Source: Acidobacteriaceae bacterium (GTDB taxonomy: Bacteria > Acidobacteriota > Terriglobia > Terriglobales > Acidobacteriaceae). Taken from it: a DNA stretch of 64,000 nt. The translations under genes and the position numbers were made by a program. Of this stretch, positions 5,600 to 52,524 are shown piece after piece. The DNA is taken from assembly GCA_030037545.1 (NCBI GenBank), contig JASHRF010000101.1, positions 1 to 64,000 of the forward strand, read 5' to 3'. Numbering within the stretch: position 1 is the first letter of the stretch; the number at the start of each line of letters is the position of its first letter. The notes under the pieces are model-generated. The model did no database searches. It was not told where the DNA came from and saw only the letters and a program-made list of their open reading frames with translations.

Positions 5600-5837
5600 T
5601 AGGGCCTGTTAACACTAGTGGGGTGGCGGCGACAGGAGCCGATTTTTCCGAGTTCCAGGAGCAGGAGCGACAACGAAATTGGGAAAATCGGCCCTGTCCC
5701 TTCGGGTTGCGGCCAAAATCGGGTCATACTTTGTTGTCGTCCCAGGCGGTGGGCCCGCCACAGCCGTCGTCCTCCACCTCGTCTGACCCGATTTTGGCTG
5801 ACAACGCCATCCACCCCACTAGTGTTAACAGGCCCTA
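5600..5837. mobile_element. 238-bp MITE-like element with long perfect terminal inverted repeats
   Basis: The left end 5601-5626 (starting AGGGCCTGTTAACACTAG) and the right end 5811-5836 are perfect reverse complements over 26 bp, or 27 with the outer T/A. Both ends carry TA, fitting a TA target duplication (IS630/Tc1-mariner-like or some IS5-type ends). Inside are two more hairpins: GCCGATTTT (about 5638-5646) with AAAATCGGC (5685-5693), and GCCAAAATCGGGTCA (5713-5727) with its complement at 5784-5798. There is no transposase inside. The right TA supplies the stop codon of the sensor kinase gene (TAG, 5835-5837). Confidence 0.8.
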
Positions 5838-7205
5838 GAACTCCTCGTATCGCGGCGCCGTCTGAGGCTGGGTCATGGGCAGGCGCACGATGGCGCGGGC
5901 GCCCTCGCCATCTTTTCGATTCGCCAGTTGAATCTCACCACCATGTGCGCGCGCAACCTGCTGCGCCAGCGCCAGGCCGACGCCGCTTCCTTTTTGTTTA
6001 GTGGTATAAAACGGCACAAACAGGTTTTCTACGTTGGCGATGCCCATACCGCGGTCTTCAATGGTAAATTGCAGAGTTGAGCCGACCACGCTCCACGTTG
6101 CGCGCACCGGATGCGATCCGTTGGCTAGCGAAGCGTCTACGGCATTGGCCAGCAGGTTGATGAGCATCTGTTCCAGTTGATCGGGATCGGCGCGCAGCGT
6201 AGCCGGCGGTCCAGGATCGAGCTCGACTTGCAGCCGCTGCTCCAACAACACCACGCGCTCCAGCAGCGCACCCGCTTCCACGCGCCGCAACTGCGGCGGC
6301 GGCAACTGCGCCAGCCGCCGGTAAGATTGCACGAAGCGATGCAGCGCATCGGCGCGGCTCTCTATTACGCTCAGCCCGCGGCGAAAATCGTGCAGCTCCG
6401 GCTCCTCGCCTTCCATTCTGTCCATCCGCGCCAGCAGGCTGCCCGCAATCGATTTGATGGGCGCAAGGGAATTCGAAAGCTCATGGCCCAGCACTCGGAT
6501 CAATCGCTTCCATGCTACCTGCTCCTCTTCCTGCAGCGCCAGACTCACATCGGCCAGCAGCAGCAGCGTGTGGGGCGCGCCCTCCTGCCGGAAGACCGCC
6601 TTGCGCAGCAGCCATCGCGCCGGATTGGCGCCAAACGAATGCGTGCTCTGATCAGGCGCTCGCAGTAAATCTTCAAGCCCCAGCTCCCGCGCCGATCGCC
6701 CGAACGAGCGCGCATACGGCAGTCCCAGCAGCTTGAGGCCGGCGTCGTTTACCAATTGCAGCGAGTTTTCGCGATCGAAGGCGAACAGCGGTGCGTGCAT
6801 GACTTCAAGGATGCGCGCCAGCAGCGCCGTCGCTTCCAGCGAGCGCACGCGCTGCCGTTGCAGCAGATCGGCCAGGGCGTTCACTTCGCCGGCCAGCTCG
6901 CCCAGCGCATCGTGCGCGCCGGCGCCGCGGGCGCGAAATGAGTAATCGCTTTCCCGCAGCGATGCGACCACGTTGGAGAGCGTCTGCAATGGCCGCACCA
7001 GGCCGTCGATCAGCGCCGATGCAACCAGCACCATGTAAAGAAGAATGCCGCCGGCCAAAAGCGCAGCCAGCGTGCCGCTGAGTTGTCCCTGATAGAAAAA
7101 GATGGCCGCAAATGCCAGCGCCGGAGACGTCAGGAGAAGGCACTGCAGCCACGCGCGGCGAACCGCCGAGCGGCGCGGCCGACGCATTTGGTTCTCAAAG
7201 GCCAT
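5835..7205 (-). CDS. NtrY-like membrane sensor histidine kinase
   Basis: 456 residues from ATG 7205; TTG 7214 and ATG 7187 are alternatives. Two N-terminal membrane helices flank a very short periplasmic loop (about residues 20-70). A HAMP-like segment, a PAS region (about 125-225), a HisKA helix with the phospho-acceptor His in VLGHELSNSLAPI (about His241) and a HATPase domain ending in GSGVGLALAQQ follow. The 'GHELSNSLAPI' H-box is typical of NtrY/AtoS-type kinases that signal to sigma-54 activators. The gene overlaps the 3' end of the regulator gene upstream, so they are co-translated. Its stop codon is formed by the end of the 5600-5837 element, so a few C-terminal residues may have been replaced by that insertion. 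Confidence 0.88.
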   Translation of the reverse strand: MAFENQMRRPRRSAVRRAWLQCLLLTSPALAFAAIFFYQGQLSGTLAALLAGGILLYMVLVASALIDGLVRPLQTLSNVVASLRESDYSFRARGAGAHDALGELAGEVNALADLLQRQRVRSLEATALLARILEVMHAPLFAFDRENSLQLVNDAGLKLLGLPYARSFGRSARELGLEDLLRAPDQSTHSFGANPARWLLRKAVFRQEGAPHTLLLLADVSLALQEEEQVAWKRLIRVLGHELSNSLAPIKSIAGSLLARMDRMEGEEPELHDFRRGLSVIESRADALHRFVQSYRRLAQLPPPQLRRVEAGALLERVVLLEQRLQVELDPGPPATLRADPDQLEQMLINLLANAVDASLANGSHPVRATWSVVGSTLQFTIEDRGMGIANVENLFVPFYTTKQKGSGVGLALAQQVARAHGGEIQLANRKDGEGARAIVRLPMTQPQTAPRYEEF

Positions 7206-8541
7206 ACTTTTCAATGCGCCGGTAAAGTGCGGCGCGGCTCAGGCCCAGCGCCTCCGCGGCCTGCGAGATATTCCCATCGCAGCGGCGCAAAACCTTGCGA
7301 ATGAGCAGCGATTCAACCTCATCGATGCTCATATTCTCAAACGAGGGCGTAACCTGCCGCGCGGACGCAATGGCGAAATCGCTGGGTTCCACCTCGTCGC
7401 CGCGGCAGAGGAGTACCGCGCGCTCCACCATGTGTTCCAGCTCGCGGACGTTGCCCGGCCAGGAGTATTGCATCAGTTCCTGCATCGCCGCCGGCGAAAA
7501 CCCGCTCACCTGCTTGCGGTAGCGGCTGCGATTGCGATTGAGAAAATGCTGCGCCAGCAGCGGAACGTCCTCGCGGCGGTCGCGCAGCGCGGGCAAATGA
7601 ATTTCTACGGTATTAATCCGGAAGAGCAGATCCTCGCGAAAGTTTTCGGCCGTCACCTCGTCTTGCAACTGCGCGTTGGTTGCGCAAAGAACCCGCACAT
7701 CCACGCGCCGCGTTTGCGACGAGCCGACGCGCTCCAGCTCTCCGGTCTCCAGCACGCGCAGCAGCTTGGCCTGTTGGCGCAAGGGAACGTTGGCAATCTC
7801 ATCCAGAAACAGCGTGCCGCCGTTAGCCAGCTCAAAGCGGCCGATGCGATCAGTGCGCGCATCGGTGAATGCGCCTTTCACATGGCCGAAGATTTCACTT
7901 TCGAAGGTACCCTCGGGCAATCCGCCGGCGTTCACGGCCACCAGCGCCATGCGCGAGCGCGGCGAGGCGGCATGGAGCAGCCGCGCCACAATCTCCTTGC
8001 CCGTGCCGTGCTCGCCGGTGATGAGCACGTTGGCGTCCGACGGCCCTACCTGCGCGATCAGCTCCAACACGGGCTGCATGGCAGGCGCGGCGGCTACAAA
8101 TTCCGGCAGCCCCTCGGCGCGCAGCAAGCGGTTTTCGAGTTCCAACTGGCGCGCGCGTTTGAGCGCCTGGTGAAGCTCCGCGTGCACGCGAATCTGCGAC
8201 AGCAGGCGCTCGTTTTCCCACGGCTTCTGCACAAAATCGCGCGCTCCACGCTTGATGGATTCGACGGCCAGGTCGATATTGCCCCACGCCGTCATCACAA
8301 TCACCGGCAGGCGCGGGTCGAATTCGCGAACGTGCGCCAGCAGGTCAAGCCCTTCACGTCCCGAAGTGGTGTCGCGCGTGTAGTTCAGGTCGATCAGCAG
8401 CACATCGTAATCGGACTGCCCCAGCGCTTCCATCACCAGTTGCGGCGAACGCGCCGTGTCCACATCGATGCCCTGGGGCGCGAGCAGCAGCTCCACAGCT
8501 TCCAGAATGTGGGGCTGATCGTCGGCAACCAGAACCCGCAT
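7195..8541 (-). CDS. Sigma-54-dependent NtrC-family response regulator
   Basis: 448 residues in three domains. The receiver (1-~120) has Asp7/Asp8, the phospho-acceptor Asp51, Thr84 and Lys106. The AAA+ domain (about 150-380) has Walker A GEHGTGKE (176-183), Walker B GGTLFLDE (241-248) and WPGNVREL. The C-terminal Fis-type helix-turn-helix (about 410-448) ends in ALGLSRAALYRRIEKYGL. The sigma-54 contact loop reads GAFTDA (223-228) where GAFTGA is canonical. With the kinase that overlaps it downstream it forms a two-component pair. It sits 45 bp after the tolC-like gene, so it is probably read with the transporter operon, which suggests autoregulation or pump control. Confidence 0.92.
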   Translation of the reverse strand: MRVLVADDQPHILEAVELLLAPQGIDVDTARSPQLVMEALGQSDYDVLLIDLNYTRDTTSGREGLDLLAHVREFDPRLPVIVMTAWGNIDLAVESIKRGARDFVQKPWENERLLSQIRVHAELHQALKRARQLELENRLLRAEGLPEFVAAAPAMQPVLELIAQVGPSDANVLITGEHGTGKEIVARLLHAASPRSRMALVAVNAGGLPEGTFESEIFGHVKGAFTDARTDRIGRFELANGGTLFLDEIANVPLRQQAKLLRVLETGELERVGSSQTRRVDVRVLCATNAQLQDEVTAENFREDLLFRINTVEIHLPALRDRREDVPLLAQHFLNRNRSRYRKQVSGFSPAAMQELMQYSWPGNVRELEHMVERAVLLCRGDEVEPSDFAIASARQVTPSFENMSIDEVESLLIRKVLRRCDGNISQAAEALGLSRAALYRRIEKYGL

Positions 8542-8586
8542 TTTCGCTTGCTTGTTCGGAATAGCCTGCCTCCGTTCTTGCTCATT

Positions 8587-10620
8587 CTACGGCGCGCGCG
8601 TCACGACACCCGATTTGGCATCGTCGATAGAAACGCCCGTCCGCTCCAGGGTTTCTCCGGTGGCGCGGTCGATATCCACCTTGGCTTTTTCAAAGGCTGT
8701 CTGTGCGGCCACCAGGGTGGATTCGGCGATGGCCAGTTGCTGTTGCGCGACCAGGGTATCGTAGCTGGATTTGGCGCCGAGCTTCTGTTCCTGCTCGGTA
8801 ATGTCAAAAGTTTTCTGCGCCAGATCGCGCGCCTTTTGCGCGGCCTCCACGCGGGCTTGAGCCTGCTGCAGCGCGAACTGCGAGTTGCGCACGTCAAAAC
8901 GGATGCTCTTTTGTTGCTGCTCGGAGCTGATCTGGCTCTGCCGGTACTGCAGCACGGCGCGGAACTGGTCCGCCTTGGCGACGCGATTGCGCAGATCGAT
9001 AGAGAGCGTCATGCCCACCTGGTATTCGGGCGAGGAATAGTTGAAGATGTCCTGAAACATGCCCGGGAAACCTGTGGGCAGGTCGGTGGCGCACTGCGTA
9101 CCGAGATTGCAATAGAGGTTGGCGGGACCGGCGACCCCGGCCCCGGCGTAGAAGCCGTACATATTGAGGGTGGGCAGGAGCTCACTGTTGATGTCTTTTA
9201 GAGCCTGCTTCTGCACCTCGGCCTGCATCTGGTAAATGGCGACTTCAGGACGCTTCTTTTCAGCTTCGGCGATGAGATCGTCGATGGGTTTGGAAGCGTT
9301 GGGATCGGGCGCACCTTCGAGATCCAGTGGAATGACGGGCATTTCATCGATCGACGGATCGTCGACCTTAGTGAGCGCGTTCTTGAGCAGCAGTTCGTTG
9401 AGACGCAGACTGGCGCGGGCCACGGTGAGATTGCCCTCGGCGGTGGCCACATCCGACTCGTCCGTCAGGACCTGCATGGCCGGGATGGCTTTGAGCTGGA
9501 GCTGCTTCTGGTCCATCTCGAGAGTCTGCTGTGAGAAGGCGAGCGAGCGATCCGCGATCTGCTCGTCGCGATAGGCGTTCACCAAATCCCAGTAGATGTT
9601 CTCTATCTGCGTAACCGTGGCGGTGACCTGAACCTTGAAAGCCAAGTCGGTGATTTGGGCATTGCGCTTGGCGATGCGGATGAACCGCTCGTTGGTGGAG
9701 AGGCCAAATCCTGCCAGGAAGGGCTGGGTGATCTGCACTGCGAAATTGGAATAGAGCTCGGGGTTGATGCCGTTGTACGGAGAATTGCTGGTAATACGCT
9801 GTCCAAGGTACTGAGCGGAAAGGTTAGTGCCCAGCGGGAAAGACTGGCTGAAATTGCCCAGAGCCTGAATGGTATTGACTCTGAGAACCGGCGTGCCGAC
9901 CAGAAACTCGTTGGCCTCCTGGGTGACGGTGTGATCGTCAAAGCCCTTGAACGTCAGGAAGGGGTCGAAGGAGGGAACCGTAGTTCCCTCGCCCAGCGTC
10001 GACGTCACGATACCACCCGTGCCGGCAGAGAATCCGGATCCCCCGCCCCCGCTGCTTGATGAGCTAAACCCGCCCTCCGTGGACGACTGCACGATGGCGG
10101 TATTGACGCCATTCGCCGCGCCACCGGCCTTGGTGCGCTGAATATCGGTCTGGGCTATGGGGAAGTTATAGCGGAAGTAGGCTAAATCGAGGTTATTTTC
10201 GATGGCCACAGCGATCGCATCGTGCAACGAAATGTATAGTTTTCCATTGCTGATGAGGTTTTGAAGCAGCGGCGAGTTGTTGAGGTCAAGTGGAGGCGCG
10301 GTGCTGGGCAGATAAGGAGAAAGCGGATTATGCGAGTGCGGCAGCGACACGTGAAACGGCTGCGGCGGAGGCGGAATCGGCTGCTGCTGTTGCTGCATCA
10401 GTTGCGCCAGCGAAGGCTGCGCCGGCGCGCCATTCGCAGCGGGCATTGGAGCCTCCGGCGTAGTGGGAGTTGTCCCGGCGCCGGCGGGCGCTGTTTGTGT
10501 GGGCGGAGGGGGCGCGGGTTGCTGGTTCTGAGCAAGACTGCCTGGAACAAGCTGCGTGCAGAGCGCCGCAGCCGCGATCCATAAGAGCGTTGAGGTCTTG
10601 ATCCGTGAAGTGGGGGTCAT
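8587..10620 (-). CDS. TolC-family outer-membrane efflux channel protein
   Basis: 677 residues with a signal peptide (cleavage near residue 31, GSLAQ) and a long Pro/Gln/Ala-rich stretch to about residue 115 before the channel domain. Two OEP-type repeats follow with long alpha-helical heptad segments (for example QQALKDINSELLPTLNMYG and the helix after RNRVAKADQF). TolC-type proteins form trimeric outer-membrane channels that take substrates from an adaptor and inner-membrane pump. The extended Pro-rich N-terminus makes it longer than E. coli TolC (~490 aa). Its ATG overlaps the TGA of the ATPase gene upstream (ATGA), so they are translationally coupled. Confidence 0.92.
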   Translation of the reverse strand: MTPTSRIKTSTLLWIAAAALCTQLVPGSLAQNQQPAPPPPTQTAPAGAGTTPTTPEAPMPAANGAPAQPSLAQLMQQQQQPIPPPPQPFHVSLPHSHNPLSPYLPSTAPPLDLNNSPLLQNLISNGKLYISLHDAIAVAIENNLDLAYFRYNFPIAQTDIQRTKAGGAANGVNTAIVQSSTEGGFSSSSSGGGGSGFSAGTGGIVTSTLGEGTTVPSFDPFLTFKGFDDHTVTQEANEFLVGTPVLRVNTIQALGNFSQSFPLGTNLSAQYLGQRITSNSPYNGINPELYSNFAVQITQPFLAGFGLSTNERFIRIAKRNAQITDLAFKVQVTATVTQIENIYWDLVNAYRDEQIADRSLAFSQQTLEMDQKQLQLKAIPAMQVLTDESDVATAEGNLTVARASLRLNELLLKNALTKVDDPSIDEMPVIPLDLEGAPDPNASKPIDDLIAEAEKKRPEVAIYQMQAEVQKQALKDINSELLPTLNMYGFYAGAGVAGPANLYCNLGTQCATDLPTGFPGMFQDIFNYSSPEYQVGMTLSIDLRNRVAKADQFRAVLQYRQSQISSEQQQKSIRFDVRNSQFALQQAQARVEAAQKARDLAQKTFDITEQEQKLGAKSSYDTLVAQQQLAIAESTLVAAQTAFEKAKVDIDRATGETLERTGVSIDDAKSGVVTRAP

Positions 10621-11321
10621 GATCTGACAGCCTCCGTGGATTGAGCGTGCAGATTCTCATCGCGTGTCAACCAGCCGTCGCGCAGCTCCACAATGCGCCT
10701 GCCGTAGCGCGCGTTTTCATCCGAGTGCGTGACTTGCACAATCGTGGTGCCTTGCCGGTTCAGTTCGCAGAAGAGCTCCATAATCTCGCGCGCCTGCGCG
10801 GAGTGGAGATTGCCGGTGGGCTCGTCGGCCAGCAGCAGCGGCGGCGCGTGCACCACGGCGCGCGCAATGCCCACCAGTTGCTGTTGCCCGCCGGAAAGCT
10901 GGCTCGGAAACAGATCTTTCTTGGCCACAATCTGAAAGCGGTCGAGGATGTCGGCTACCATACCCTGCCGCTCCTTGGCGGGAAGGTTTTTGTAAGAGAG
11001 CGGCAGATCGATGTTCTCGGCAACGGTAAGATCGTCGAGCAGGTGATAGCTCTGGAAGACCATGCCAATGCGCTGCCGCGCCAGATCGGCTCGCTGCTTG
11101 CGGTTGAAGGCGTGCACCGGCGTCTCATCGAACCAGTATTCGCCCAGCCAGCCGTCGTCGAGCAGCGCCAGCACATTCAGCAGCGACGACTTCCCTGCCC
11201 CCGACGGACCCATGATGGTGACAAACTCGCCCGCGCGAATGGTCAACCCGATGCGGCGCAACACCCAGGTCTCGGTATGGCCGGTCTTGTAACTGCGTTC
11301 CACGTTTTTGAGTTCAATCAT
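10617..11321 (-). CDS. MacB/LolD-type ABC transporter ATP-binding subunit (distal copy)
   Basis: 234 residues, a single ABC nucleotide-binding domain. Walker A is GPSGAGKS (38-45), the Q-loop Gln90, the signature LSGGQ (142-146), Walker B LLLADE (162-167) and the switch His199. Unusual points are LVGIARA where RVAIARA is common, and a D-loop reading NLHS where NLDS is usual. It starts 3 bp after the stop of the first ADOP permease, using a GGAG inside that gene's end, and overlaps tolC downstream. It should power one or more permeases of the array. Only 234 aa with no permease domain, unlike E. coli MacB, where both are fused. Confidence 0.93.
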
Positions 11322-11324
11322 TAT

Positions 11325-13790
11325 CTACTCCGATCGCAAAGCCAGAATGGGATCAACGGCGGCAGCGCGGCGTGCGGGCAGCCAGGCCGCAATGAGCGAT
11401 GCCGCCGCGAGTACGAGCATCACCGAGATAAACGTGATTGCATCATGAGGCTGGACGCCAAAGATGTAGCTGCGCTCCAGCTTTACCGCAAACCATGCCA
11501 GCACCGCGCCCAGCGCCAGTCCGGCTGAAGAAAGAAGCAGCGCGCGCCGCATCACCAGGCCAACGATCTTCGCTTCCGGCGCTCCCAGCGCAATGCGCAC
11601 CCCGATTTCGCGCGTGCGTTGCGCCACGGAAAACGAAAGCAGCCCGTAGAGGCCCACGGTTGCAATCATCAGCGCGATTCCCGCAAAGCCTTCGAGCAAA
11701 TGTGCAATCAGCGTCTGGCTGCCAAAGGAGTTTTCGACCGCCTCGTGAATGGTCTCCACGTTGGTGGTGGTCGCGTCCGGCGCCACTTGGTGCAAGACCC
11801 TGTCAAATTGCGCGCGCAGACTGTCCGCCGGAACCGCGGCGCGAATCGCCACCTGGATGAAAGCGGTGGCGATTCCATAGAGCGGATCGCCGGGTTGCAT
11901 CTGCGCCAGGCAGAAGTACAATTCCGGTCGCGTTGCATCCACGACGTTGGCCTGCTTCACATCGCCGATGACGCCCACGATGCGCGCATTTGCAAACCGT
12001 CCCTTGCCCATCGACACCGTGTGCCCTATTGGATCCTGGCCCGCGAGATATTTCTTCGCGAATGCTTGATTGATCACGGCTACAGGAGGCGAGCCGGCCG
12101 TGTCGTCTTCCGAAAAAAATCTGCCCCGCTCCATGGGAATTCCCAGCGCTTCTACCAGCCCAGCCGAAGCTAGTCGGCCATTGGAGCGTGGCGTCTGCGG
12201 ATAAGGAACCTTTTTGTGGTCGATGGGCGTCATCAAATCCACTTCGAACTCCGAGCGCAATGGCAGAACCGAACTTAGCGCAGCTACCTGCACACCGGGA
12301 ATCGCGCGCAGCTTCTCCAATAACGGCCGATACGCTGTTTGCACAATATTCGGCTGACCGGCTGTTCCATCGGTCAGCATGTTTGCGCCATTCAAAATGA
12401 TTCCACCGGTCAGCACGTTCTGCTGTGTAAACCCGAGCGGCACTTCGCGCAGTGCGCGAAGCGTGCGCAGGAAGAGCCCGGCGCCGGCGAGAAACACCAG
12501 CGTGAGCGCGATCTGCCCAACCACCAGAACCTCGCGTGCGCGATTCTGCCCGGCAGAAGCGGTGCTCGAAACGCCATGCAGATGCGCCTGCACATTGCGT
12601 CCCGCCGCGCGTAGCGCCGGGATCATGCCCGTCAGCACTCCGGTAACCAGCGTCAGCGCACCCAGGCACACAACCACGCGCCAATCCACGTGAATGGTGC
12701 TGGTCAGGGGCAGGCGATGGGCAATCTGCCGCCACAGCAATTTAATTGCGCCCTCGCCCAGCAGCAATCCCGCCACTGCGCCGATAGAGCTCAGTACCAG
12801 GCTTTCAATGATCGACTGCTTCAGCAACCGCAGCCGGCTCGCGCCCAACGCCGAGCGCACCGCCTGTTCGCGGCTGCGCGCCACCGATCGCGCCAGCATG
12901 AGATTGGTCACATTCAGGCAAGCCAAAGCCCAGATGCCGAAGACCACGGCGTACAGCAGCAGCAATGGTTTGCGCGCCTGGTGGTTCATCGATTCCTGAT
13001 AGGTGCTTATCTTCACCTTGGCCGGCAGAGTGTCGTCGTTGGGAACCCTCTTCGCGATCAATGCCTGCGCCCGGTCGAGCGCCGCAGTTAATTGAGCCAC
13101 CGTCATCCCCTCGGGCAGGCGCGCGAAGAGACTGCCCGAAATCCCATTCTGGTCAAACGACAGCGAATTTCGATTCGCTGCCGTCAACTCCTGCGGTGAC
13201 CAGATTTCCATCGGGTCGCCGAAGGGAAACGAGAAGGTACGCGGCATGACGCCAACCACCGTGTAGCTCACGCCGCGAATCGCGAGCGTCTTGCCCAGAA
13301 TCCCCGGATCGGCGTGGTACAGCTTGCGCCATACATCCTCACCGAGCAGCACCACGCGATTGCGGCCGGGATTGTTTTCGTCGGCGCGAAAGCCGCGTCC
13401 CAGCATGGGCTGCACGCCCAGCATATCGAGCAGCCCCGCGTCGATTTCCGAGCGTTCCACCTGCACCCGTCCACCCGGCCCAACTACGCTGGCCATGGAA
13501 CTGTTGAATTCCACGCCGATTTTGAGCTTCGGTCCCACCGCATCTCGCAACGCGAGCATGTTGCCGTAGGTCATGCTGAAATACGGCATGGGGCTCACCA
13601 GATCAATGGTCACGATGCGATTGCCATCGGCGTAAGGCAGCGGGCGCAGCAAAATGCCGTTGAGCACCGTAAACACGGCAATGTTTGCGCCCAGCCCGAG
13701 CGCCAGCACGATCACCGCGGTCAACGTGAACCCCGGCGCATGGCGCAACTGCCGTATTGCGTAACGCATGTCTTGAAGAACCGTATTCAT
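11325..13790 (-). CDS. ADOP-family ABC permease 1 (most distal of the array)
   Basis: 821 residues from ATG 13790, chosen because AAGGAGAA lies 6 bases upstream; an earlier ATG (13856) has no such site. It begins with the family motif MNTVLQDMRYAIRQLRHAPG, then one membrane helix, a large MacB-type periplasmic domain, three FtsX-type helices, a second helix/periplasmic-domain/FtsX unit, and ends ARRAAAVDPILALRSE. The two halves make one chain equivalent to a MacB permease dimer without an ATPase. Such orphan permeases are known mainly from acidobacteria. The ATPase gene follows after 3 bp. Substrate unknown. Confidence 0.93.
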   Translation of the reverse strand: MNTVLQDMRYAIRQLRHAPGFTLTAVIVLALGLGANIAVFTVLNGILLRPLPYADGNRIVTIDLVSPMPYFSMTYGNMLALRDAVGPKLKIGVEFNSSMASVVGPGGRVQVERSEIDAGLLDMLGVQPMLGRGFRADENNPGRNRVVLLGEDVWRKLYHADPGILGKTLAIRGVSYTVVGVMPRTFSFPFGDPMEIWSPQELTAANRNSLSFDQNGISGSLFARLPEGMTVAQLTAALDRAQALIAKRVPNDDTLPAKVKISTYQESMNHQARKPLLLLYAVVFGIWALACLNVTNLMLARSVARSREQAVRSALGASRLRLLKQSIIESLVLSSIGAVAGLLLGEGAIKLLWRQIAHRLPLTSTIHVDWRVVVCLGALTLVTGVLTGMIPALRAAGRNVQAHLHGVSSTASAGQNRAREVLVVGQIALTLVFLAGAGLFLRTLRALREVPLGFTQQNVLTGGIILNGANMLTDGTAGQPNIVQTAYRPLLEKLRAIPGVQVAALSSVLPLRSEFEVDLMTPIDHKKVPYPQTPRSNGRLASAGLVEALGIPMERGRFFSEDDTAGSPPVAVINQAFAKKYLAGQDPIGHTVSMGKGRFANARIVGVIGDVKQANVVDATRPELYFCLAQMQPGDPLYGIATAFIQVAIRAAVPADSLRAQFDRVLHQVAPDATTTNVETIHEAVENSFGSQTLIAHLLEGFAGIALMIATVGLYGLLSFSVAQRTREIGVRIALGAPEAKIVGLVMRRALLLSSAGLALGAVLAWFAVKLERSYIFGVQPHDAITFISVMLVLAAASLIAAWLPARRAAAVDPILALRSE

Positions 13791-13812
13791 CCGTAATTCT
13801 CCTTCGGCAGAA

Positions 13813-16293: not shown

Positions 16294-16314
16294 GCGCCAT
16301 TCTCCTCCAGCGAA

Positions 16315-18771: not shown

Positions 18772-18801
18772 CTTTCCTTCTCCTTCGGCCTCCGGGAATC
18801 G

Positions 18802-21345: not shown

Positions 21346-21399
21346 CGTCAACCTCCGGCTTTCTCGCTCCCCATCCCCAAATCTTCGCGTTCGTCAGCG

Positions 21400-23895
21400 T
21401 TATTCCGTGCGCAGCGCTTGCATGGGCTCAATGGCCGCCGCGCGGCGCGCCGGAACCAGCGTTGCCGCGAGCGCAAGCGCAAAGATCGAGCAGGCCGCCA
21501 GCATAATCACCAACGGGTCCAGGGGGTTCACCTCAAAGAGGAGCGAACGCAGCAGCCGTGTGGCAAGCATCGCGCCGGCCGTTCCAATTAAGCACCCCAT
21601 CAGCCCCAGTCTGGCTCCCGAAAACACGATCAGGCGCATCACGCTGGAGCGCTGGCTTCCCAGCGCCAGCCGGATGGCCATCTCCTGCGTGCGCATGACG
21701 GCGGAAAACGCAATCACGCTGTAGATGCCCAGCAGCGCCAACAATCCCGCGACCACGGCGAAGCTCGAGACCAAAGCCGCATTGAAACGTCGTGGCGCTT
21801 CTGTCTCGCTCACCGCTTGGTCCATGGACTGCACCAGGGTAAGGGGAAGCTGCGGATCGATGGAGCGCACCGTGGCGCGTAGCGAGTCAATCATGCTGTC
21901 AGGCGGCAACGCGGTGCGTAGCACGATGGCACCGCCCTGCGCGTTCAGGTCGCCTGGCGAGGCGAGCGAGCCATAGGAAGCCACGTTCTGGCTGAACGGC
22001 TGGTAGATCTGATATCTCGTCGGCGCGTCGGCGCTGGTTTGCCTGATATTGCCGATCACGCCAACCACGGTCATCCAAGGCGTAGGCGTTTCCTGCAACC
22101 CGAAACGAATGCGCTTGCCAATCGGATCCTGTCCCGGCCAGAAGTGGCCAGCTAATTTCTCATTCACAATCGCCACCAGCGGCGCTTTGGCGTTGTCCGC
22201 GTCAGTAAATGCTCTGCCCTGCAGCACCGGAATTCCTGCAGCACGGAAATAATCGCCAATCACCTGCGAAGGCCAAGCCAAGCTCCAGGGAGATCCCTTA
22301 GGCGGAACATAACCCTCGGCGATAAACCCACCGCCGCCATTGGCACCTGCCGCGGGCAAAATTGACGTAATGCCCGCCGCCGTAACTCCCGGTTGAGCCT
22401 GCAGCCTCTCGAGCAACTGGTCATTGAACGCATCGATCGAAGCTTGTGTCGCATACTGCTTCTGCGGCAGGCTGTAATATGCCGTCAGCATATGATCGGT
22501 GCGGAAGCCCAGATTCACTTCGCGCAGTTTTTCGAAACTGCGCAGCAGCAATCCCGCGGCAATCAGCAGCACCAGGGCCACGGCGATTTCCGCAACCACG
22601 AGCGCCGACCGCAGCCGCGCGCTCCCCGTCCCTGCCGTGCCGGTGCGCCCCCCCTCCTTGAGTGTGTCGTTGAAAGGCGTTCGCGCAGCGGCAAGCGCCG
22701 GCACCAGCCCGCACAGCAGGCCGGTAACAGCGCCGGCCAGAAGCGCAAAACCCACAACCTGCCAATCCAGCCCAATGGAGCTGATGCGCGGCAGCGTTTC
22801 CGGCAGCAGGCTGACTCCAACCTGCAATGCAATCGCGGCCAACCCCAACCCCAGCAGCCCGCCTGCCAGGCTCAGCATCAGGGTTTCGATCAGCATCTGG
22901 CGCAGCACTGCCGTGGCACTGGCGCCCAGAGCCAGGCGCACGGCAATCTCGCGCCGCCTGCGGATGACCCGCACCAGCAATAACCCGGCAAGGTTGGCGC
23001 AGGCGATAAACAGCACCACGGCCACGGCCAGAAATAACATGCGCAGAAGCGGCCGCGCCTGCGCCACTGCATCCTCGGCCAGCGGATGCACCACAGCGCT
23101 GATGTGCAGGCTGGACATGAAGGCCGGGAAATTGCTCATGATCTGTTTGGCTACGCGCTCGGCATCCTGCTGCGCCTGGGCCGGAGAGACACCCGGCTTC
23201 AATCGGCCCACCATGCCGCAGCACCAGCTCGCCTGCGCCACGCCGCCGCTACGCTCATTCTGAGCCGGGCTCAACGGAACCCATAGCTGACTGCGGCTCA
23301 ACTGCCCGGGGATGAGCGGAAACTCGAAATTCCGCGGCATGACGCCAATGATCTCGTAAGACTTTCGATCAAGCAGAATTTTTTCGCCCAGCACCTGCGC
23401 ATCGCCGCCAAAACGGCTGCGCCACATGCCATAGCTGATCACGGCCACCTGCACGCTGCCATCGTCTTCCTGCTTGGTAAACGTGCGCCCCAGCAGCGGC
23501 GCCACGCCCAACGTAGGAAACATGCTGGCCGTAAGCCGCGAAGCGTTGATCTGCGCCGGAGCACCTGCGCCGGAGAACTCATAGGTTGACATCTCAAATC
23601 CACCCAGGCTAGAGAAACCCCTGGTCTCGCGCTGGTAGGTGAATATCTCCGGCATGGTTACGCCCGAATCTCTGTTGGCGCCAAAATCCGTGCCCGACAG
23701 GGAGTCGGAGAGAACCACCAGTTGCCCAGGATCGCGAAAGGGCAACGGCCGCAGCAGCACACCCTCCACGATGGAGAAAATCGCCGTAGTCGCGCCGATG
23801 CCGAAGGCCAGCGTCAGCACCGCTGTCAGCGCGAACCCCGGCGCGCTTTGCAACTGCCGCAACGCATAGCGAAAATCGCGCCCCAGGTTATTCAT
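21400..23895 (-). CDS. ADOP-family ABC permease 5
   Basis: 831 residues, MNNLGRDFRYALRQLQSAPG to ARRAAAIEPMQALRTE. The ribosome site is weaker (GAGAGAAAA) than those of its neighbours, and the 48-bp spacer to permease 4 is the longest in the array. Both MacB-like periplasmic domains and both FtsX blocks are present (LFIACANLAGLLLVRVIRR; TQEMAIRLALGSQR). In the second block the loop reads EMAIRLALGS, slightly different from the E.GIRMALGA of other members. It should act as an inner-membrane component of the export machine. Confidence 0.92.
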   Translation of the reverse strand: MNNLGRDFRYALRQLQSAPGFALTAVLTLAFGIGATTAIFSIVEGVLLRPLPFRDPGQLVVLSDSLSGTDFGANRDSGVTMPEIFTYQRETRGFSSLGGFEMSTYEFSGAGAPAQINASRLTASMFPTLGVAPLLGRTFTKQEDDGSVQVAVISYGMWRSRFGGDAQVLGEKILLDRKSYEIIGVMPRNFEFPLIPGQLSRSQLWVPLSPAQNERSGGVAQASWCCGMVGRLKPGVSPAQAQQDAERVAKQIMSNFPAFMSSLHISAVVHPLAEDAVAQARPLLRMLFLAVAVVLFIACANLAGLLLVRVIRRRREIAVRLALGASATAVLRQMLIETLMLSLAGGLLGLGLAAIALQVGVSLLPETLPRISSIGLDWQVVGFALLAGAVTGLLCGLVPALAAARTPFNDTLKEGGRTGTAGTGSARLRSALVVAEIAVALVLLIAAGLLLRSFEKLREVNLGFRTDHMLTAYYSLPQKQYATQASIDAFNDQLLERLQAQPGVTAAGITSILPAAGANGGGGFIAEGYVPPKGSPWSLAWPSQVIGDYFRAAGIPVLQGRAFTDADNAKAPLVAIVNEKLAGHFWPGQDPIGKRIRFGLQETPTPWMTVVGVIGNIRQTSADAPTRYQIYQPFSQNVASYGSLASPGDLNAQGGAIVLRTALPPDSMIDSLRATVRSIDPQLPLTLVQSMDQAVSETEAPRRFNAALVSSFAVVAGLLALLGIYSVIAFSAVMRTQEMAIRLALGSQRSSVMRLIVFSGARLGLMGCLIGTAGAMLATRLLRSLLFEVNPLDPLVIMLAACSIFALALAATLVPARRAAAIEPMQALRTE

Positions 23896-23922
23896 CGCAT
23901 TTTCTCTCGTGCCAGCCGTAGT

Positions 23923-26355
23923 TTATTCATTGCGCAGCGCCTGCATGGGATCAATAGAAGCCGCGCGCATTGCCGGCAGCAGCGCCGCAAGGAGGCCCGC
24001 CACCACCAGAATGAGCGCCAGCAGCGCAAATCCGCCGGCTTCTTTTTCCGCGTTAAAGTAAATCACTACTCCGATGAGCTTACGCGCAGTTACAGTGAGC
24101 AACAGGCCCACAGCCACGCCCGCGCCCAGCATCCACGCCACGCGCGCAAGCGTCATAGCCAGGATGCGGCTGCGGGTCGCGCCCAGCGCCATGCGCACAC
24201 CGATGTCGCGCGTCGCCTGCTCCACTTCATGGCTCACAAGCCCATACAGCCCGACCAATGCCAGCACCAGCGCCAGTGCGGCGAAGATGCCGAAAAGCCA
24301 GCCTTCCATGCGATTGAAGATCAGCGTCTCGGAAACGACGTCGCTCATTGTTTCCGGCGCGATGAACGGAACCGTGGGGTCCGCCTGGTGGATCGCGTTG
24401 CGCAATGCCGGAACGATGGCCGCAGCGCTGCCCTCGAAGCGCACCACCAGCGACATGTTGTCGATGATGGGCTGTTCTTTCGCAGGCAGCTCCTCAATTA
24501 ACCAGTCGCGCTCCGCCAGCGGCGGTTCGTAAATATCCTGGCGAATGTTCCCAACAACCCCGACGATGCGCGTCCAGTTTTCTTCCTTGTCCGCGTCGTC
24601 GATGCGCTGCGTCGTAGGATCGAGGTTCGCAGGAACAAACTTCCTTACGAAGGCTTCGTTCACGACAACGCTCGGCGAAGGATTGCTGGCACGGTCGAGA
24701 TTCGGCGAGAGCATGCGTCCGCGGCGCAACGGTATTCCAAAGACATTGAAATACCCGGTCGAAACGAACCGGTTTTCCGCCAGCATCTCGCGGTTGGGCG
24801 GATTGGGCGGCTGCCCGGCGATGTGAATGTCGGAGTTGGATCCATAACTTTCGATGGGCAGGAGGCTGATGGCGCCTACCGCGCGCACCCCGGGAATGTG
24901 CGCTACACGCTCGAATAGCGGATTGTAAAAATCGGTCACCACGTCGCGGCCCTCATAGCGTGTCGGCGAAAGATTGACTTGCGTGGCGAGAATGTCCGCC
25001 GGATCGAAGCCCAGGTTTTCATGCCGGAAATTCATCACTACACGGATGAGCAATCCGGCCGTCACTACCAGAACCATGGTGAGAGCAATCTGGGTCACGA
25101 TGAAGCCGGCGCGCAGGCGATGCTGACCGCGTCCCGTGCCCGCGTTGCCGCCGGCTTTCAAGGCGCGATTGGGATCGATACCCGACAGCCGCAGCGCCGG
25201 CAAAGCAGAGGATGCGAGACTGGCCAGTACTGCCAACCCCACGGCCGCGGCCAGCACCGTCCAGTTCATTTGAATTTCCGCGCCGCGTTGCAGCGCCTTG
25301 ATAAGGAATGCGCGCATCAGGTCCAGCATGGTTCCGGCCAGCAGGATGCCACCCGCTGCGCCCAGCAGTGCCAGCAGAACACCCTCCACCAGCAACTGGC
25401 GAACAAGCTGCGCGCGCCCCGCGCCGATAGCGGTGCGCACGGCCATCTCACGTTCGCGTTGCACGCCACGCGCCAGCAGCAAGCCGGCCACGTTCACGCA
25501 CCCGATGGCCAGCACCGCCAGCACTGCAGCGAGCAGTGTCCATAAGGGACCGCGGCTCTGGCTCTCGATGCTCTGCGCCAGCAGTTGCAAATGCACCGTG
25601 CGGCCTTCGTCGGTATCGGGATAAGCGCGACCGAGATTGCTGAAAACATGCGCCAGGTCAGCCTGGCCCTGCGCAACGCTGATGCCGTCCTTCACCCGTC
25701 CCACTGTTCGCAGCCAGTGGTTGCCGCGGCCATTCATCCACGGCAAGTCGCGATGGAGGGGCGTGTAAATCTCGTCGTGCATGTTGATGGGAAAACGAAA
25801 GCCGGCGGGCATGACGCCCACGACCGTCGCGGTATGGCCATCCACCTTGACCGCGCGGCCGATCACGCTGCGATCACCGTCAAAATAGCGCTGCCATGCG
25901 CTATAGCTGAGCACGACGACCTGGTTTCTTCCCCTCTCATCTTCTCCGGGAAGAAAGGTGCGTCCCAGCAAGGGGTTTACGCCGAAAACTTGGAAGAAGT
26001 TATCGGTGCTCTCGACACTACCGAGCGCGACCGGACCCGCCGCCTGCGTGTCCACAGTGGCCTTGAAGTAGTTGATGTAGCCGGCCAGTGCGCTGAAATC
26101 GTGCGCCTGAGCGCGCTCGTCTACAAAGCCCTCCCAGGAGGCCGGCTGCGCGTAGCCGCTGCGGCTGGTGCTTTCCACGTCCACAATGCGATCCGGGTGC
26201 GCGTAGGGCAGCGGGCGCAGGATCACCGCGTCGATTACGCAGAAAACCGCCGTGGCCACACCCACGCTCAGGGCCAGCGTCAGCACCACCGTGGCCGCGA
26301 ATCCCGGCGCACGGCGCAATTGCCGCAGTGCAAAGAACAGATTCCGCATGAACAT
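23923..26355 (-). CDS. ADOP-family ABC permease 6 (first of the array)
   Basis: 810 residues, the shortest of the six: MFMRNLFFALRQLRRAPG to MRAASIDPMQALRNE. The ATG at 26355 lies 5 bases after AGGAGGA, and this ribosome site overlaps the stop codon of a decayed seventh permease (26366-26448). The N-terminal cytoplasmic helix is shorter than in other members. Two MacB-type periplasmic domains and two FtsX blocks are intact (GCVNVAGLLLARGVQRERE; TRDIGVRMALGATR). Confidence 0.93.
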   Translation of the reverse strand: MFMRNLFFALRQLRRAPGFAATVVLTLALSVGVATAVFCVIDAVILRPLPYAHPDRIVDVESTSRSGYAQPASWEGFVDERAQAHDFSALAGYINYFKATVDTQAAGPVALGSVESTDNFFQVFGVNPLLGRTFLPGEDERGRNQVVVLSYSAWQRYFDGDRSVIGRAVKVDGHTATVVGVMPAGFRFPINMHDEIYTPLHRDLPWMNGRGNHWLRTVGRVKDGISVAQGQADLAHVFSNLGRAYPDTDEGRTVHLQLLAQSIESQSRGPLWTLLAAVLAVLAIGCVNVAGLLLARGVQREREMAVRTAIGAGRAQLVRQLLVEGVLLALLGAAGGILLAGTMLDLMRAFLIKALQRGAEIQMNWTVLAAAVGLAVLASLASSALPALRLSGIDPNRALKAGGNAGTGRGQHRLRAGFIVTQIALTMVLVVTAGLLIRVVMNFRHENLGFDPADILATQVNLSPTRYEGRDVVTDFYNPLFERVAHIPGVRAVGAISLLPIESYGSNSDIHIAGQPPNPPNREMLAENRFVSTGYFNVFGIPLRRGRMLSPNLDRASNPSPSVVVNEAFVRKFVPANLDPTTQRIDDADKEENWTRIVGVVGNIRQDIYEPPLAERDWLIEELPAKEQPIIDNMSLVVRFEGSAAAIVPALRNAIHQADPTVPFIAPETMSDVVSETLIFNRMEGWLFGIFAALALVLALVGLYGLVSHEVEQATRDIGVRMALGATRSRILAMTLARVAWMLGAGVAVGLLLTVTARKLIGVVIYFNAEKEAGGFALLALILVVAGLLAALLPAMRAASIDPMQALRNE

Positions 26356-26365
26356 GCGCGTCCTC

Positions 26366-26448
26366 CTATTCCGTCCGCAGTGCCTGCAGGGCTCAATGGA
26401 GGCCTCGCGACGCGCCGGAATCAGCGCCGCGCACAGTGGTTTGGCCGC
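26366..26448 (-). pseudogene. Frameshifted tail of a seventh ADOP permease
   Basis: Read from 26448 leftwards the frame gives AAKPLCAALIPARREASIEP, the family's C-terminal signature. One base is then missing: CCC-TGCAG stands where CCC-ATGCAG is expected. In the shifted frame the rest reads QALRTE followed by TAG (26366-26368), the normal ADOP ending. Only ~27 codons remain; the other ~800 codons are gone. The remnant sits between the ATPase gene and permease 6, where a full gene would fit the operon order. Confidence 0.8.
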
Positions 26449-26500
26449 GGATAATCGAAATCCATTTCTGTGCCGGCTGCCTGAACGTTGGTGTCTGCTG

Positions 26501-27229
26501 TTACGCCTCCGCTTCGGCTTCCAGCTTCTTCATCTCCTGCTCCGACACCACCTTGCCGTCGAACAGGTGCACTTCGCGCTCGGCGTGGCGCGCAAAACGC
26601 GGGTCGTGCGTGACCATGCAGATTGTGGACCCTTCGCGGTGCAGATCGGCGAGCAGGTGCATCACCGCCTCGCCGTTCTTGGAGTCCAGGTTGCCAGTGG
26701 GCTCGTCGGCCAGCAGGATGGAGGGTGATCCGGCCAAAGCGCGCGCCACGGCCACACGCTGCTGCTGACCGCCGGAGAGCTGCGCGGGATAGTGCCTCAT
26801 GCGGTGCGCCATATTCACGCGCTCCAGCGCCTCTTTCACGCGCCGCTTGCGCTCTGCGGAAGGCATGCCGGCGCGGTAGGTGAGCGGCAATTCAACGTTC
26901 TCTTCTACCGTCAGGTCGCCAATCAGGTTGAAACTCTGGAAAATGAACCCGATCTCCTGGTTGCGAATGCGCGAGCGCTCGCTAAAGCTCAGGTTCTCCA
27001 CCGGCTTGCCGTTGAGCTGGTAGCGGCCGCCGGTGGGCGTGTCGAGCAGCCCCAGAATCGACAGCAGCGTCGATTTGCCGCAGCCCGACGGCCCCGACAT
27101 GGCCAAGTACTCACCACGGTCGATGGTGAGATGAATCCCCGAGAGCGCGTGTGTTTCGACTTCGTCGGTGTAGAAGACCTTGGTCAGATCCTCGATCTCA
27201 ATCAGCGTGCTGTTGCCATTCGATGCCAT
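26501..27229 (-). CDS. MacB-type ABC transporter ATP-binding subunit (proximal copy)
   Basis: 242 residues with all ABC motifs in canonical form: Walker A GPSGCGKS (46-53), Q-loop Gln98, signature LSGGQQQRVA (151-160), Walker B ILLADE (171-176), D-loop NLDS and switch His208. The C-terminus is a short acidic helix (MKKLEAEAEA). GGGGGA lies ~5 bases before the start. The gene follows the adaptor gene and precedes the permease array, as macA-macB order would predict. It differs clearly from the distal ATPase at 10617-11321, so the array has two ATPases of independent lineage. Confidence 0.94.
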   Translation of the reverse strand: MASNGNSTLIEIEDLTKVFYTDEVETHALSGIHLTIDRGEYLAMSGPSGCGKSTLLSILGLLDTPTGGRYQLNGKPVENLSFSERSRIRNQEIGFIFQSFNLIGDLTVEENVELPLTYRAGMPSAERKRRVKEALERVNMAHRMRHYPAQLSGGQQQRVAVARALAGSPSILLADEPTGNLDSKNGEAVMHLLADLHREGSTICMVTHDPRFARHAEREVHLFDGKVVSEQEMKKLEAEAEA

Positions 27230-27243
27230 GCCATCCCCCGTTT

Positions 27244-27338
27244 CAGTTGCCAGTGATCAGTGGTTGGTGGTGGTCAGTTCACAGTTCCCAGCTCGCGATT
27301 CCGCCGAAAGCCCTTAGTCCCGAGTCCCTGGTTCCTGT
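27244..27338. repeat. 7-bp-periodic degenerate tandem repeat
   Basis: The gap between the ATPase and adaptor genes is built of imperfect 7-mers: CAGTTGC, CAGTGAT, CAGTGGT, TGGTGGT, GGTCAGT, TCACAGT (27244-27285), then CCCTTAG, TCCCGAG, TCCCTGG, TTCCTGT (27311-27338). The second group runs up to the stop codon of the adaptor gene. Similar 7-mer filler occurs near 28.8, 36.1, 36.5 and 39.8 kb. Confidence 0.6.
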
Positions 27339-27339
27339 C

Positions 27340-28626
27340 TCAATCCAGCCGGATATGGTCCACGTTGTCATAGCGCGACATGTCCGACAGAATCACCGTG
27401 TCGTCCTCTTTCAGGCCGGAAAGCACCTGGATGTCCTCGACCGAAGCCCGGCCCACCTTCACGGACACGCGCGTCGCCGTCTTGCCGTCGGGATCGATGC
27501 GGAACAAGCTCAGCGTCGAGTTCTCGTTGCCCAGCGCAGGCCGGCCCACGAAGAGCACATCCTTCATGCGCTCCAGGTCGATGGTGCCGTCCACGCTCAA
27601 CTGCGGAACAGCGCCCGGCGGCAGTGGCCCGTCCAGTTCTACGTCAACGGTGCGGGTTCCGTTCACCACCGCAGGATCGATACGCGTCACGTGCCCGGGA
27701 ATAATGCCGTTATGGGTGTCGATCGAGGCTGGCTGGCCGAGCTGAATGTCGCGCGCCTGCGTCTCAGCAATTTGCAGGGCGGCCTTGAGCTTGCCGCTCT
27801 GGACGACCTCGGCTACTGACGTTCCCGCCGTCACGTGCTGACCCACCTGCACCGGCGTAGCCAGCGGCGCCAGCGTGCCGGAGATCGACGACCGCACATC
27901 GAGCGCCTGAGACTGTTTCTCGTAAAGATCGAGCAGCGCCTTGGCCTGATCGATCTTGGTCTGCTGCGAAGCCAGTTGCACCAGGATCGCCTTCTGATTC
28001 ACCTCGAGCTGCTCCTGGCTGAGCTGGTGCTGTACGGTAAGCTGATCGGCTGTGCTCTTCGATTTCTCGTAGGTGAGCCCCGAGATCACGCCCAAGTCAT
28101 AGAGCGCCTTGTCGGTCTGCGCCTGCAGCTCGTCCTGCGTATAATCTGCATTCACCTGCGCGGCCGCCGTCTTCTTGTCCATGAGCGTGCTATCGAGCTG
28201 CGCCTGCAGGCTCTTGTAGTCGGCTTGAGCCGCTTTGAGCCCCAGTTGCGCGTTCAGCAGTTCCTGTTGGAGCTCGGGATCGGCCAAGTCCATGATGATG
28301 GTGTCGGGCGTGACCTGTGCACCGGGCAGCACGCGAATCCGCACCACCGTGGCGTCAGTCAGGGCGGGGATCAGCTCGGTCGCGTCCTCGCGCGGCACCA
28401 GCATGCCCGTGGACGAGCGCACCTGGCGAATCAGCGGCCCGCGTTTCACCGTATCGGTCCAGATGGTGGAGCGGTCGACGGTGGGCGCGGCCGGCTTCAG
28501 CCGCGAAACTCCCAGCGCCAGCAGCGCCACAACCACTATTCCAGCGCTGGACCACAACATCGTCCGGCGTTTCTTCTTCTGCTTAATATCAGGGCGCGCG
28601 ATATCCATTGCCATAGACACTAGCAT
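27340..28626 (-). CDS. HlyD/MacA-like periplasmic adaptor (membrane fusion) protein
   Basis: 428 residues from ATG 28626; ATG 28614 or 28608 are also possible, as no start has a clear ribosome site. A basic N-terminus (KQKKKRR) precedes one membrane helix (about residues 24-42). A lipoyl/barrel-sandwich half (VRIRVLPGAQVTPDTIIMDL) follows, then a long alpha-helical hairpin (about 115-240, many Gln/Leu heptads), the second lipoyl half (SGTLAPLATPVQVGQHV), a beta-barrel and a C-terminal membrane-proximal domain. It should bridge the inner-membrane ABC complex and the TolC channel. It is the first gene of the leftward export operon. Confidence 0.9.
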   Translation of the reverse strand: MLVSMAMDIARPDIKQKKKRRTMLWSSAGIVVVALLALGVSRLKPAAPTVDRSTIWTDTVKRGPLIRQVRSSTGMLVPREDATELIPALTDATVVRIRVLPGAQVTPDTIIMDLADPELQQELLNAQLGLKAAQADYKSLQAQLDSTLMDKKTAAAQVNADYTQDELQAQTDKALYDLGVISGLTYEKSKSTADQLTVQHQLSQEQLEVNQKAILVQLASQQTKIDQAKALLDLYEKQSQALDVRSSISGTLAPLATPVQVGQHVTAGTSVAEVVQSGKLKAALQIAETQARDIQLGQPASIDTHNGIIPGHVTRIDPAVVNGTRTVDVELDGPLPPGAVPQLSVDGTIDLERMKDVLFVGRPALGNENSTLSLFRIDPDGKTATRVSVKVGRASVEDIQVLSGLKEDDTVILSDMSRYDNVDHIRLD

Positions 28627-28766
28627 CTACGCTGCCAACGGCGAATCAGTTCCCACACATTGAAACGAAAGGGGTTCTTGATCAAAGGAAGAACTTGAAT
28701 GCAGGGCGAAGTGACCGGTTGGGCCTCCGGACTGTCCGAATTCGAACAGTAGGCAGCGTGACTGAC

Positions 28767-37311: not shown

Positions 37312-37411
37312 AGCCCGTTCTCCCGGCTATTTCTTTATGGAGCCCTGGCAGAGAGCGAAGCCAAAACGCGGGAAAGTCCGGACGGCCCAATGCAGCGCCC
37401 TCGTCCGGCGA

Positions 37412-38155
37412 TCAACTTTTAAGCGTGACTCCAATCGTAGGCTGGTGTTGCGCCAGTCCGAGCTTCCGCGCATAGAGCCGCGCCAGCAGGCGCGCGTAAT
37501 CCCAGCCGACTTTCAAGCCGGCTTTGCTCTCGCCGCCAGAGCGCAGCCCGAACGCAAAGGGAATCTCTTCTACCGACCCGACGCGGGAGCGGATGAGGAT
37601 TTCAAGCAGCAGCTTGAAGCCGGACCTCTGGAACGCGATGTCTTCCACCGAGCGGCGGCGCACCAGAAAAAAGCCCGACATCGGGTCATGGGCCCGAACG
37701 CCAGGCTTTTGAAGCGGCCATGTGGCCCAGACTGCCGCGGACGAAAGCAGCCTGCGTGCAGCGTTCCAGTTGCCGGTTCCGCCTCCCGGCGTGTAGCGGC
37801 TGCCGATGGCCAGGTCGCGTCCGTCGGCAATCGCACGGTACAGCTCAGGCAGCAGCTCGGGCGGATGCTGCAGGTCGGCATCGATGACACCGAGAACCTC
37901 AGCATCGGTCTGACGCCAGCCATCGAGGATCGCTCCGGAAAGCCCGCGCTCGCCTCTGCGCACAACGAGCCGCACGCGCGGGTCGTCTTCTGCGATCGCC
38001 GATACCAGCGTTGCCGTGCGGTCGCGACTGTCATCGTCTACCACCAGAATCTCGAACGGGATTGCGGCGGAATCAAGCGCGGCACGCACGCGATCAAGAA
38101 GACGCCCAATGCTGGCTTCCTCATTGATTGTTGGAACCACGAGCGCGAGTCTCAT
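37412..38155 (-). CDS. GT2 glycosyltransferase, polyprenol-phosphate mannose synthase-like
   Basis: 247 residues from ATG 38155; an upstream ATG (38221) adds 22 low-complexity residues. The GT-A fold of the DPM1 family is clear: LALVVPTINEEASIGRLLDRV, EILVVDDDSRDRTATLV, GLSGAILDGWRQTDAEVLGVIDADLQHPPE (DxD) and GSRYTPGGG, with DPMSGFFLVRR. No C-terminal membrane helices, like soluble DPM1. It should transfer mannose or glucose from a nucleotide sugar to polyprenyl phosphate, giving lipid donors for membrane GT-C enzymes. It is divergent from a multi-pass membrane protein gene at 38288, a likely partner. Confidence 0.87.
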   Translation of the reverse strand: MRLALVVPTINEEASIGRLLDRVRAALDSAAIPFEILVVDDDSRDRTATLVSAIAEDDPRVRLVVRRGERGLSGAILDGWRQTDAEVLGVIDADLQHPPELLPELYRAIADGRDLAIGSRYTPGGGTGNWNAARRLLSSAAVWATWPLQKPGVRAHDPMSGFFLVRRRSVEDIAFQRSGFKLLLEILIRSRVGSVEEIPFAFGLRSGGESKAGLKVGWDYARLLARLYARKLGLAQHQPTIGVTLKS

Positions 38156-52477: not shown

Positions 52478-52524
52478 TATGCAAATTCTCCAGCCCGGCT
52501 GGGGTGAGAACTGACAACTGCTTT

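Follow-up and report, generated by a model that had tools for sequence, protein, structure and literature searches.

The window analysed here, a stretch of 64,000 nucleotides from an Acidobacteriaceae bacterium (assembly GCA_030037545.1, contig JASHRF010000101.1, positions 1 to 64,000), carries an operon of 12 minus-strand genes coding, in the order of transcription, for a periplasmic adaptor (MFP), a first ABC ATPase (ATP1), six permeases of the ADOP family (P1 to P6), a second ATPase (ATP2), an outer-membrane channel of the OEP/TolC family, a sigma-54 regulator and a kinase (Table 1). Comparison with related genomes suggests that MFP and ATP1, joined in some lineages by ATP2, probably form a separable, mostly single-copy engine for the ADOPs of this array and, we infer, for those dispersed over the same genome.

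A previous sequence-only reading had placed six ADOPs, two ATPases, an adaptor, a TolC-family channel and a sigma-54 pair in one operon. Open reading frames (ORFs) and profile matches bear this out, together with the lengths given for the six permeases. The spacers between the permease genes measure 21-54 bp; the earlier figure of 21-48 bp holds only if P3 begins at an upstream TTG. P3 and P6 have listed ORFs that begin further upstream and are 849 and 843 amino acids long, and the adaptor more likely starts at M7 than at the first ATG of its ORF, since the sigma-54-type site overlaps that ATG. Among solved structures the adaptor profile matched MexJ best (6.3e-15) and MacA at 7.6e-11. The channel protein scored 70.5 bits against TIGR01844, under the cut-off of 225.15.

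Table 1. Features of the operon (window coordinates).
Feature	Position	Strand	Basis and remarks
Sigma-54-type promoter site TGGCAGCGTAGATGCT	28622..28637	-	motif scan; overlaps first ATG of MFP ORF
MFP, periplasmic adaptor, HlyD / RND_mfp type	27340..28608	-	profile matches; listed ORF start 28626
ATP1, ABC ATPase, canonical D-loop NLDS	26501..27229	-	profile and motif reading
ADOP permease P1, 810 aa	23923..26355	-	TIGR03434, 803.0 bits
ADOP permease P2, 831 aa	21400..23895	-	TIGR03434, 891.4 bits; structure predicted
ADOP permease P3, 847 aa	18802..21345	-	TIGR03434, 879.9 bits
ADOP permease P4, 818 aa	16315..18771	-	TIGR03434, 836.1 bits
ADOP permease P5, 826 aa	13813..16293	-	TIGR03434, 640.7 bits, lowest of the six
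ADOP permease P6, 821 aa	11325..13790	-	TIGR03434, 757.1 bits
ATP2, ABC ATPase, altered D-loop NLHS	10617..11321	-	profile and motif reading
Outer-membrane efflux protein, OEP/TolC family, 677 aa	8587..10620	-	PF02321, 7.6e-34
Sigma-54-dependent response regulator, NtrC superfamily	7195..8541	-	profile matches
Sensor histidine kinase, two predicted transmembrane helices with a short gap between	5835..7214	-	profiles and transmembrane scan

The six permeases belong to one family, all exceeding the TIGR03434 cut-off (622.3 bits) along the whole chain, and each contains two MacB_PCD and two FtsX stretches, in agreement with the two MacB-like halves per chain proposed earlier. Pairwise identities among them are 28-37% overall, with 37-46% in the membrane and cytoplasmic parts and 18-32% in the periplasmic domains. 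The best relative of each is a permease in the array of another genome (69-77% identity); as neighbours within the array share at most 37%, recent duplication in place is ruled out. The predicted structure of P2 has a fold closest to YbbAP, with BceAB among the next best matches and MacB also matched.

ADOPs are called 'orphan' for having no ATPase gene nearby and are described as limited to Acidobacteria. Here, ATPases flank the array, and ADOPs over the cut-off occur also in Rahnella and Gloeobacter. To our knowledge ADOPs had not been linked to a motor before, as their name implies. Literature searches found no paper on ADOP function. The full name turned up in a single article, as a copy number taken from the RAST annotation of two Dyadobacter strains (PMC11573002). 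In a Granulicella study, MacA and MacB belong to the proteins that increase at high sugar (PMC7074687); neither this study nor an article on Solibacter paralogues (PMC3174227) names ADOPs in the parts consulted.

Orthologues of the adaptor were found in nine of 12 same-genus and in all eight same-order genomes searched, with the same neighbours wherever enough DNA was read, which indicates that the array is no chance set of genes. When the gene order was followed through other acidobacteria, the frame proved conserved and its permease filling variable. The comparison covered 18 loci (the window and its same-genus and same-order relatives), 80 named loci, which are the best 80 of at least 450 relatives, and 40 loci from a phylum sample in which 72 genomes had MFP, three of these loci belonging to the window's own family; 131 loci remained after seven duplicates were dropped. 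ATP1 adjoins MFP in 122 of the 131 (17/18; 67/73 named; 38/40 in the phylum sample). As for the nine loci without adjoining ATP1, seven end less than 500 nt behind MFP; L121 stops some 2.1 kb beyond MFP, with part of ATP1 included, and in G066 ATP1 (74% identity) lies on a different contig from MFP.

Permeases standing between MFP and ATP2 were counted in the 66 frames where both ATPases were read: none in 26, one in 20, two in six, three in ten, four in one, five in two and six in the window only, longer arrays exceeding the fetched DNA so that large numbers are under-counted. At least six permeases each, in another order, are present at L220 and L224, and some distant lineages lack ATP2 or consist of MFP-ATP1 alone. 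Twenty-two of the 26 frames without an intervening permease have no ADOP anywhere in the fetched stretch, which is incomplete for L142 and L254. Three permease-free same-order genomes (G015, G016 and G017) carry 20, 23 and 15 ADOPs elsewhere (E <= 1e-60), and in two more, G143 (L246) and G195 (L238), all four scored ADOP candidates were matches. The idea of a machine swapping among six permeases is supported in part.

The two ATPases differ in one motif. In 18 ATP1 and 13 ATP2 sequences, neither ATPase departs from the canonical Walker A, Q, signature and Walker B motifs. The D-loop of ATP1 reads NLDS in 123 of 123 sequences, and that of ATP2 is altered in all 65 that could be read among 66 (NLHS in 59, NLQS in five, NLHT in one, one unread), indicating that the D-loop aspartate was lost in ATP2 and kept in ATP1. 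Forty of 72 ADOP genomes contain the nucleotide pattern for DEPTGNLH[ST], against none of 125 others. In heterodimeric ABC exporters with a degenerate site, one of two different ATPases has altered catalytic motifs; ATP2 deviates in its D-loop and, in the sequences read, in none of the other four motifs. According to the parts consulted of two studies, this aspartate shapes dimerisation and coupling of the ATPases, and asymmetric exporters tolerate its loss unequally (PMC7756269; PMC4242082). An ATP1-ATP2 pair under an asymmetric ADOP chain is plausible from these motifs.

Adaptor and ADOPs also go together across genomes. In the phylum sample of 197 genomes, MFP (best E <= 1e-79) was found in 72 and ADOPs (E <= 1e-150) in 72, the two sets being identical; 125 genomes had neither. 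Ten further genomes with weaker MFP matches (1e-25 to 5e-44) are all ADOP-negative, and these matches are read as paralogues. A larger sample of 395 genomes, which overlaps the first (125 of its 190 positives are new), gave MFP in 187 (E <= 1e-46) and ADOPs in 190 (E <= 1e-100). MFP without ADOP was never seen, and ADOP without MFP was seen in three genomes (G231, G401 and G410). In G401 a fragment of ATP1 (77% identity) stands at the start of a contig with an ADOP behind it, so that MFP was probably lost to the contig break. Two genomes of the window's own genus (G006 and G011) have neither MFP nor ADOP. A single MFP match was found in 178 of the 187 MFP genomes and more than one in nine, with up to four candidates scored in each. 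In the single-contig genome G002, where 59 of 82 candidates were scored, one MFP orthologue goes with at least 56 ADOPs (E <= 1e-100), of which five lie in the frame.

Such co-occurrence could be a mere by-product of soil lineages with large genomes that keep many transporters, with no working link between the genes. Positive and negative genomes do cluster partly by family, and the test of association was uncorrected for relatedness. We nevertheless regard this explanation as very improbable: 12 families hold both positive and negative genomes, MFP and ADOP agree in all 197, and the genes adjoin in many frames and outside the phylum. A control adaptor paralogue behaves differently as well. 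At E <= 1e-60 it was found in 22 of the 197 genomes, namely in every genome sampled from the window's family and in no other; it is accompanied by ADOPs in 15 and not in seven, and its Fisher p of 0.0018 arises because it is confined to that family; this paralogue does not follow ADOPs.

Outside the phylum the operon appears in smaller form. A plasmid search gave 17 records with an MFP match, of which three were examined. Plasmids of Rahnella and Xenorhabdus carry MFP, ATPase, ADOP, sigma-54 regulator and kinase beside a phosphopantetheinyl transferase, joined in Rahnella by other biosynthetic genes. Both operons have a sigma-54-type site, and their ADOPs score 685.0 (Rahnella) and 611.2 (Xenorhabdus, just under the cut-off) against TIGR03434. 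A plasmid of Gloeobacter morelensis (L265, 11890-21139) encodes MFP, an 83-amino-acid ORF, a radical-SAM protein nearest to cyclophane-forming maturases, an ATPase, an ADOP (787.9) and a two-component pair (a cache-domain protein and a regulator); it is a candidate cluster for a ribosomally synthesised and post-translationally modified peptide (RiPP). The three operons have the same adaptor, ATPase and permease families as the array, and differ from it in having one permease, no ATP2 seen and biosynthetic neighbours. Because one-permease versions adjoin biosynthetic genes, the minimal operon looks like a natural-product exporter, with a plan close to that of DarBCD.

The DarBCD darobactin exporter (NF038007, NF038008 and NF038010) likewise has a separate ATPase and an adaptor, and its permease model spans 777 positions. 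DarD is the best NCBIfam model for both ATP1 and ATP2 (246.0 and 240.9 bits, cut-off 375); DarC reaches 53.4 bits (cut-off 450) and DarB 19.6-21.2 bits for P1, P2 and P6 (cut-off 700), with no match for P3, P4 and P5. None of our proteins thus passes a Dar cut-off, and the present operon further differs in its several permeases and two ATPases. One publication assigns darBCD the role of ABC-type exporter in a RiPP operon (PMC11547657). With MacAB-TolC the operon shares a MacA-related adaptor, an OEP-family channel, MacB periplasmic core domains and FtsX helices; MacB has its ATPase fused to the permease, whereas here there are separate ATPases of two types, a fused permease chain and several permeases per adaptor. 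The adaptor and outer-membrane channel set the operon apart from YbbAP and BceAB, for which we know of neither component. MsmX-type multitask ATPases, one of which serves several sugar importers according to the portion consulted of PMC7658222, differ in being importers whose sharing is shown by experiment; the operon would be an exporter, its sharing deduced from comparison.

The operon is preceded by a sigma-54-type site. In 68 of 72 named loci such a site, 28-32 nt before the MFP start, is the best one found, and it stands at the same position in ten of ten same-genus loci against four of 357 random windows, the loci in these counts being related and not independent. In the window (28637-28608) the transcript is predicted to start about 3 nt before the MFP ATG, a spacing kept within the family; a leaderless or nearly leaderless MFP message is possible. 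Among 63 kinase orthologues scanned, 37 have two predicted transmembrane segments 4-19 residues apart and 17 a single segment, in a scan that is crude. A kinase of this shape, together with BceAB among the best fold matches after YbbAP, would suit a sensing set instead of an exporter, in which the permeases act as flux sensors for the sigma-54 pair, like BceAB-type transporters with their kinases. This function appears highly unlikely: the operon's own adaptor and outer-membrane channel suggest transport through the outer membrane, relatives adjoin biosynthetic genes, many frames have one permease or none beside the kinase, and the kinase scan leaves 17 orthologues with one segment.

The genome of the window contains 23 ADOPs over the cut-off, six in the array and 17 dispersed. 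Apart from one ORF at a distance of about 7 kb, a phmmer search (1e-5) of the fetched stretches around these 17 found nothing resembling ATP1 or ATP2. An N-terminal perm_prefix domain, detected with a model built in this analysis, is present in 11 of them; the NCBIfam model NF038403, run on ten, found it in four and not in six that are prefix-less by our own model. Structure prediction for the prefix domain (six sequences, pLDDT 68.9, pTM 0.40) was too weak to match it to a known fold. A sigma-54 promoter was rejected as a general rule for dispersed ADOPs, a strong site preceding one of the 17 (L039, score 20.2). This ADOP (G000:C128), which is prefix-less, is a sister of the ADOP behind the G010 frame and has a VTT-domain gene adjoining.

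Are the dispersed ADOPs served by the same engine? In a tree of 114 rows, array membership required 20 changes, at least ten of them forced by starred branches, in an approximate FastTree calculation with a program warning on several long branches; permease lineages have moved into and out of the frame. At 227 columns conserved in array ADOPs, the same consensus is found at 224 in prefix-bearing and at 207 in prefix-less dispersed ADOPs. Sharing of the engine with dispersed ADOPs is suggested by these common motifs and this exchange of lineages, together with the co-occurrence and the permease-free frames.

Several observations weigh against such an engine or narrow it. The shared cytoplasmic motifs are generally like those of MacB-type permeases and hence weak evidence. 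The threshold behind the identical sets of 72 genomes was chosen after a gap had been seen between 1e-44 and 1e-79, two ADOP-free genomes have an MFP match at 1e-44, and the Fisher p of 1e-55 for the association ignores relatedness. G410 and G231 lack both MFP and an ATP1 orthologue (best 53% and 52%), G231 having one weak ADOP (4.8e-117), and G012, outside both samples, has 13 ADOPs and neither gene. On two megaplasmids of Gemmatirosa kalamazoonensis (L268 and NZ_CP007129.1) 16 P3-like places were seen, while MFP had no match there at 1e-30 in a search limited to the plasmids. Four of the 26 permease-free frames have ADOPs close by: six behind ATP2 in L224, one behind the kinase in L128, one upstream on the same strand in G013 and one upstream on the other strand in G019. 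The conserved-position sigma-54-type site was found in three of 31 phylum-sample loci, all of the window's family, and in none of six same-order loci. Since ATP2 is missing from many frames, an ATP1-ATP2 heterodimer is ruled out as a general requirement. Finally, over all loci with duplicates dropped, the prefix is present in 19 of 34 dispersed and in one of 186 array ADOPs, so that dispersed ADOPs could use other partners.

This last contrast favors a narrower explanation, namely that the frame drives no permeases other than those encoded within or next to it. Dispersed ADOPs would then use other ATPases or none, and the co-occurrence would reflect shared ancestry. This explanation would accommodate G012, G410 and G231, which have ADOPs without the engine. 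It would also suit the seven prefix-bearing ADOPs that directly follow a confirmed PadR gene (seven of ten ORFs submitted), which points to separate regulation. We consider it unlikely, as related permeases stand both inside and outside the frame, 22 frames have no ADOP in the fetched stretch, including three same-order genomes rich in ADOPs elsewhere, and in the window's genome the fetched stretches around dispersed ADOPs yielded an ATP1- or ATP2-like ORF only once, about 7 kb away.

The separable engine is in our view the most likely explanation, and the operon would then encode a tripartite ABC exporter within the MacB/FtsX superfamily. The engine would comprise MFP, ATP1, ATP2 where present, and the outer-membrane channel. 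Each ADOP chain, made of two fused MacB-type halves, would be a complete transmembrane part in need of two ATPase copies, and the engine would serve the six array permeases and, by extension, the dispersed ADOPs of the same genome. The periplasmic domains, the most divergent parts of the permeases, probably set the choice of substrate. In lineages with ATP2, the asymmetric ADOP would probably rest on an ATP1-ATP2 pair, one member of which has an altered D-loop; where ATP2 is missing, an ATP1 dimer probably takes this place. Activation of the operon by the regulator and kinase probably proceeds through the sigma-54-type promoter. The probable cargo is secondary metabolites, peptides among them, or toxic compounds. 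A stronger version, which we put forward more tentatively, is a hub-and-spoke export network in Acidobacteria. A single adaptor-ATPase hub under sigma-54 control, containing an ATP1-ATP2 heterodimer in lineages that have ATP2, would energise tens of interchangeable ADOPs scattered over the chromosome under separate regulators, a single tripartite pump switching substrate by exchanging its membrane part.

The operon is flanked upstream by two amino-acid permeases and downstream by an ORF on the other strand with a sub-threshold transglutaminase match, and no relation of these to the operon is apparent. Elsewhere, the window contains a cellulose synthesis cluster (44982-58637) with synthase and BcsB chain in one ORF of 1480 amino acids, a GH8 enzyme, a BcsC-like protein of 2106 amino acids and a BcsQ-like protein. 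Another ORF (59782-61224) combines a phosphotransferase domain of the APH type with a RapZ C-terminal domain, and an 808-amino-acid ORF (37337-39763) matched nothing in NCBIfam at 0.001 and DUF6798 only below threshold.

An adaptor-ATPase pair, mostly single-copy and present with ADOPs in 187 of 190 genomes, provides a concrete candidate for the motor of the whole family. If the separable engine is true, it would be the exporter counterpart of the sugar importers that share an ATPase, and the one-permease versions beside natural-product genes may offer a route to the substrates of ADOPs.

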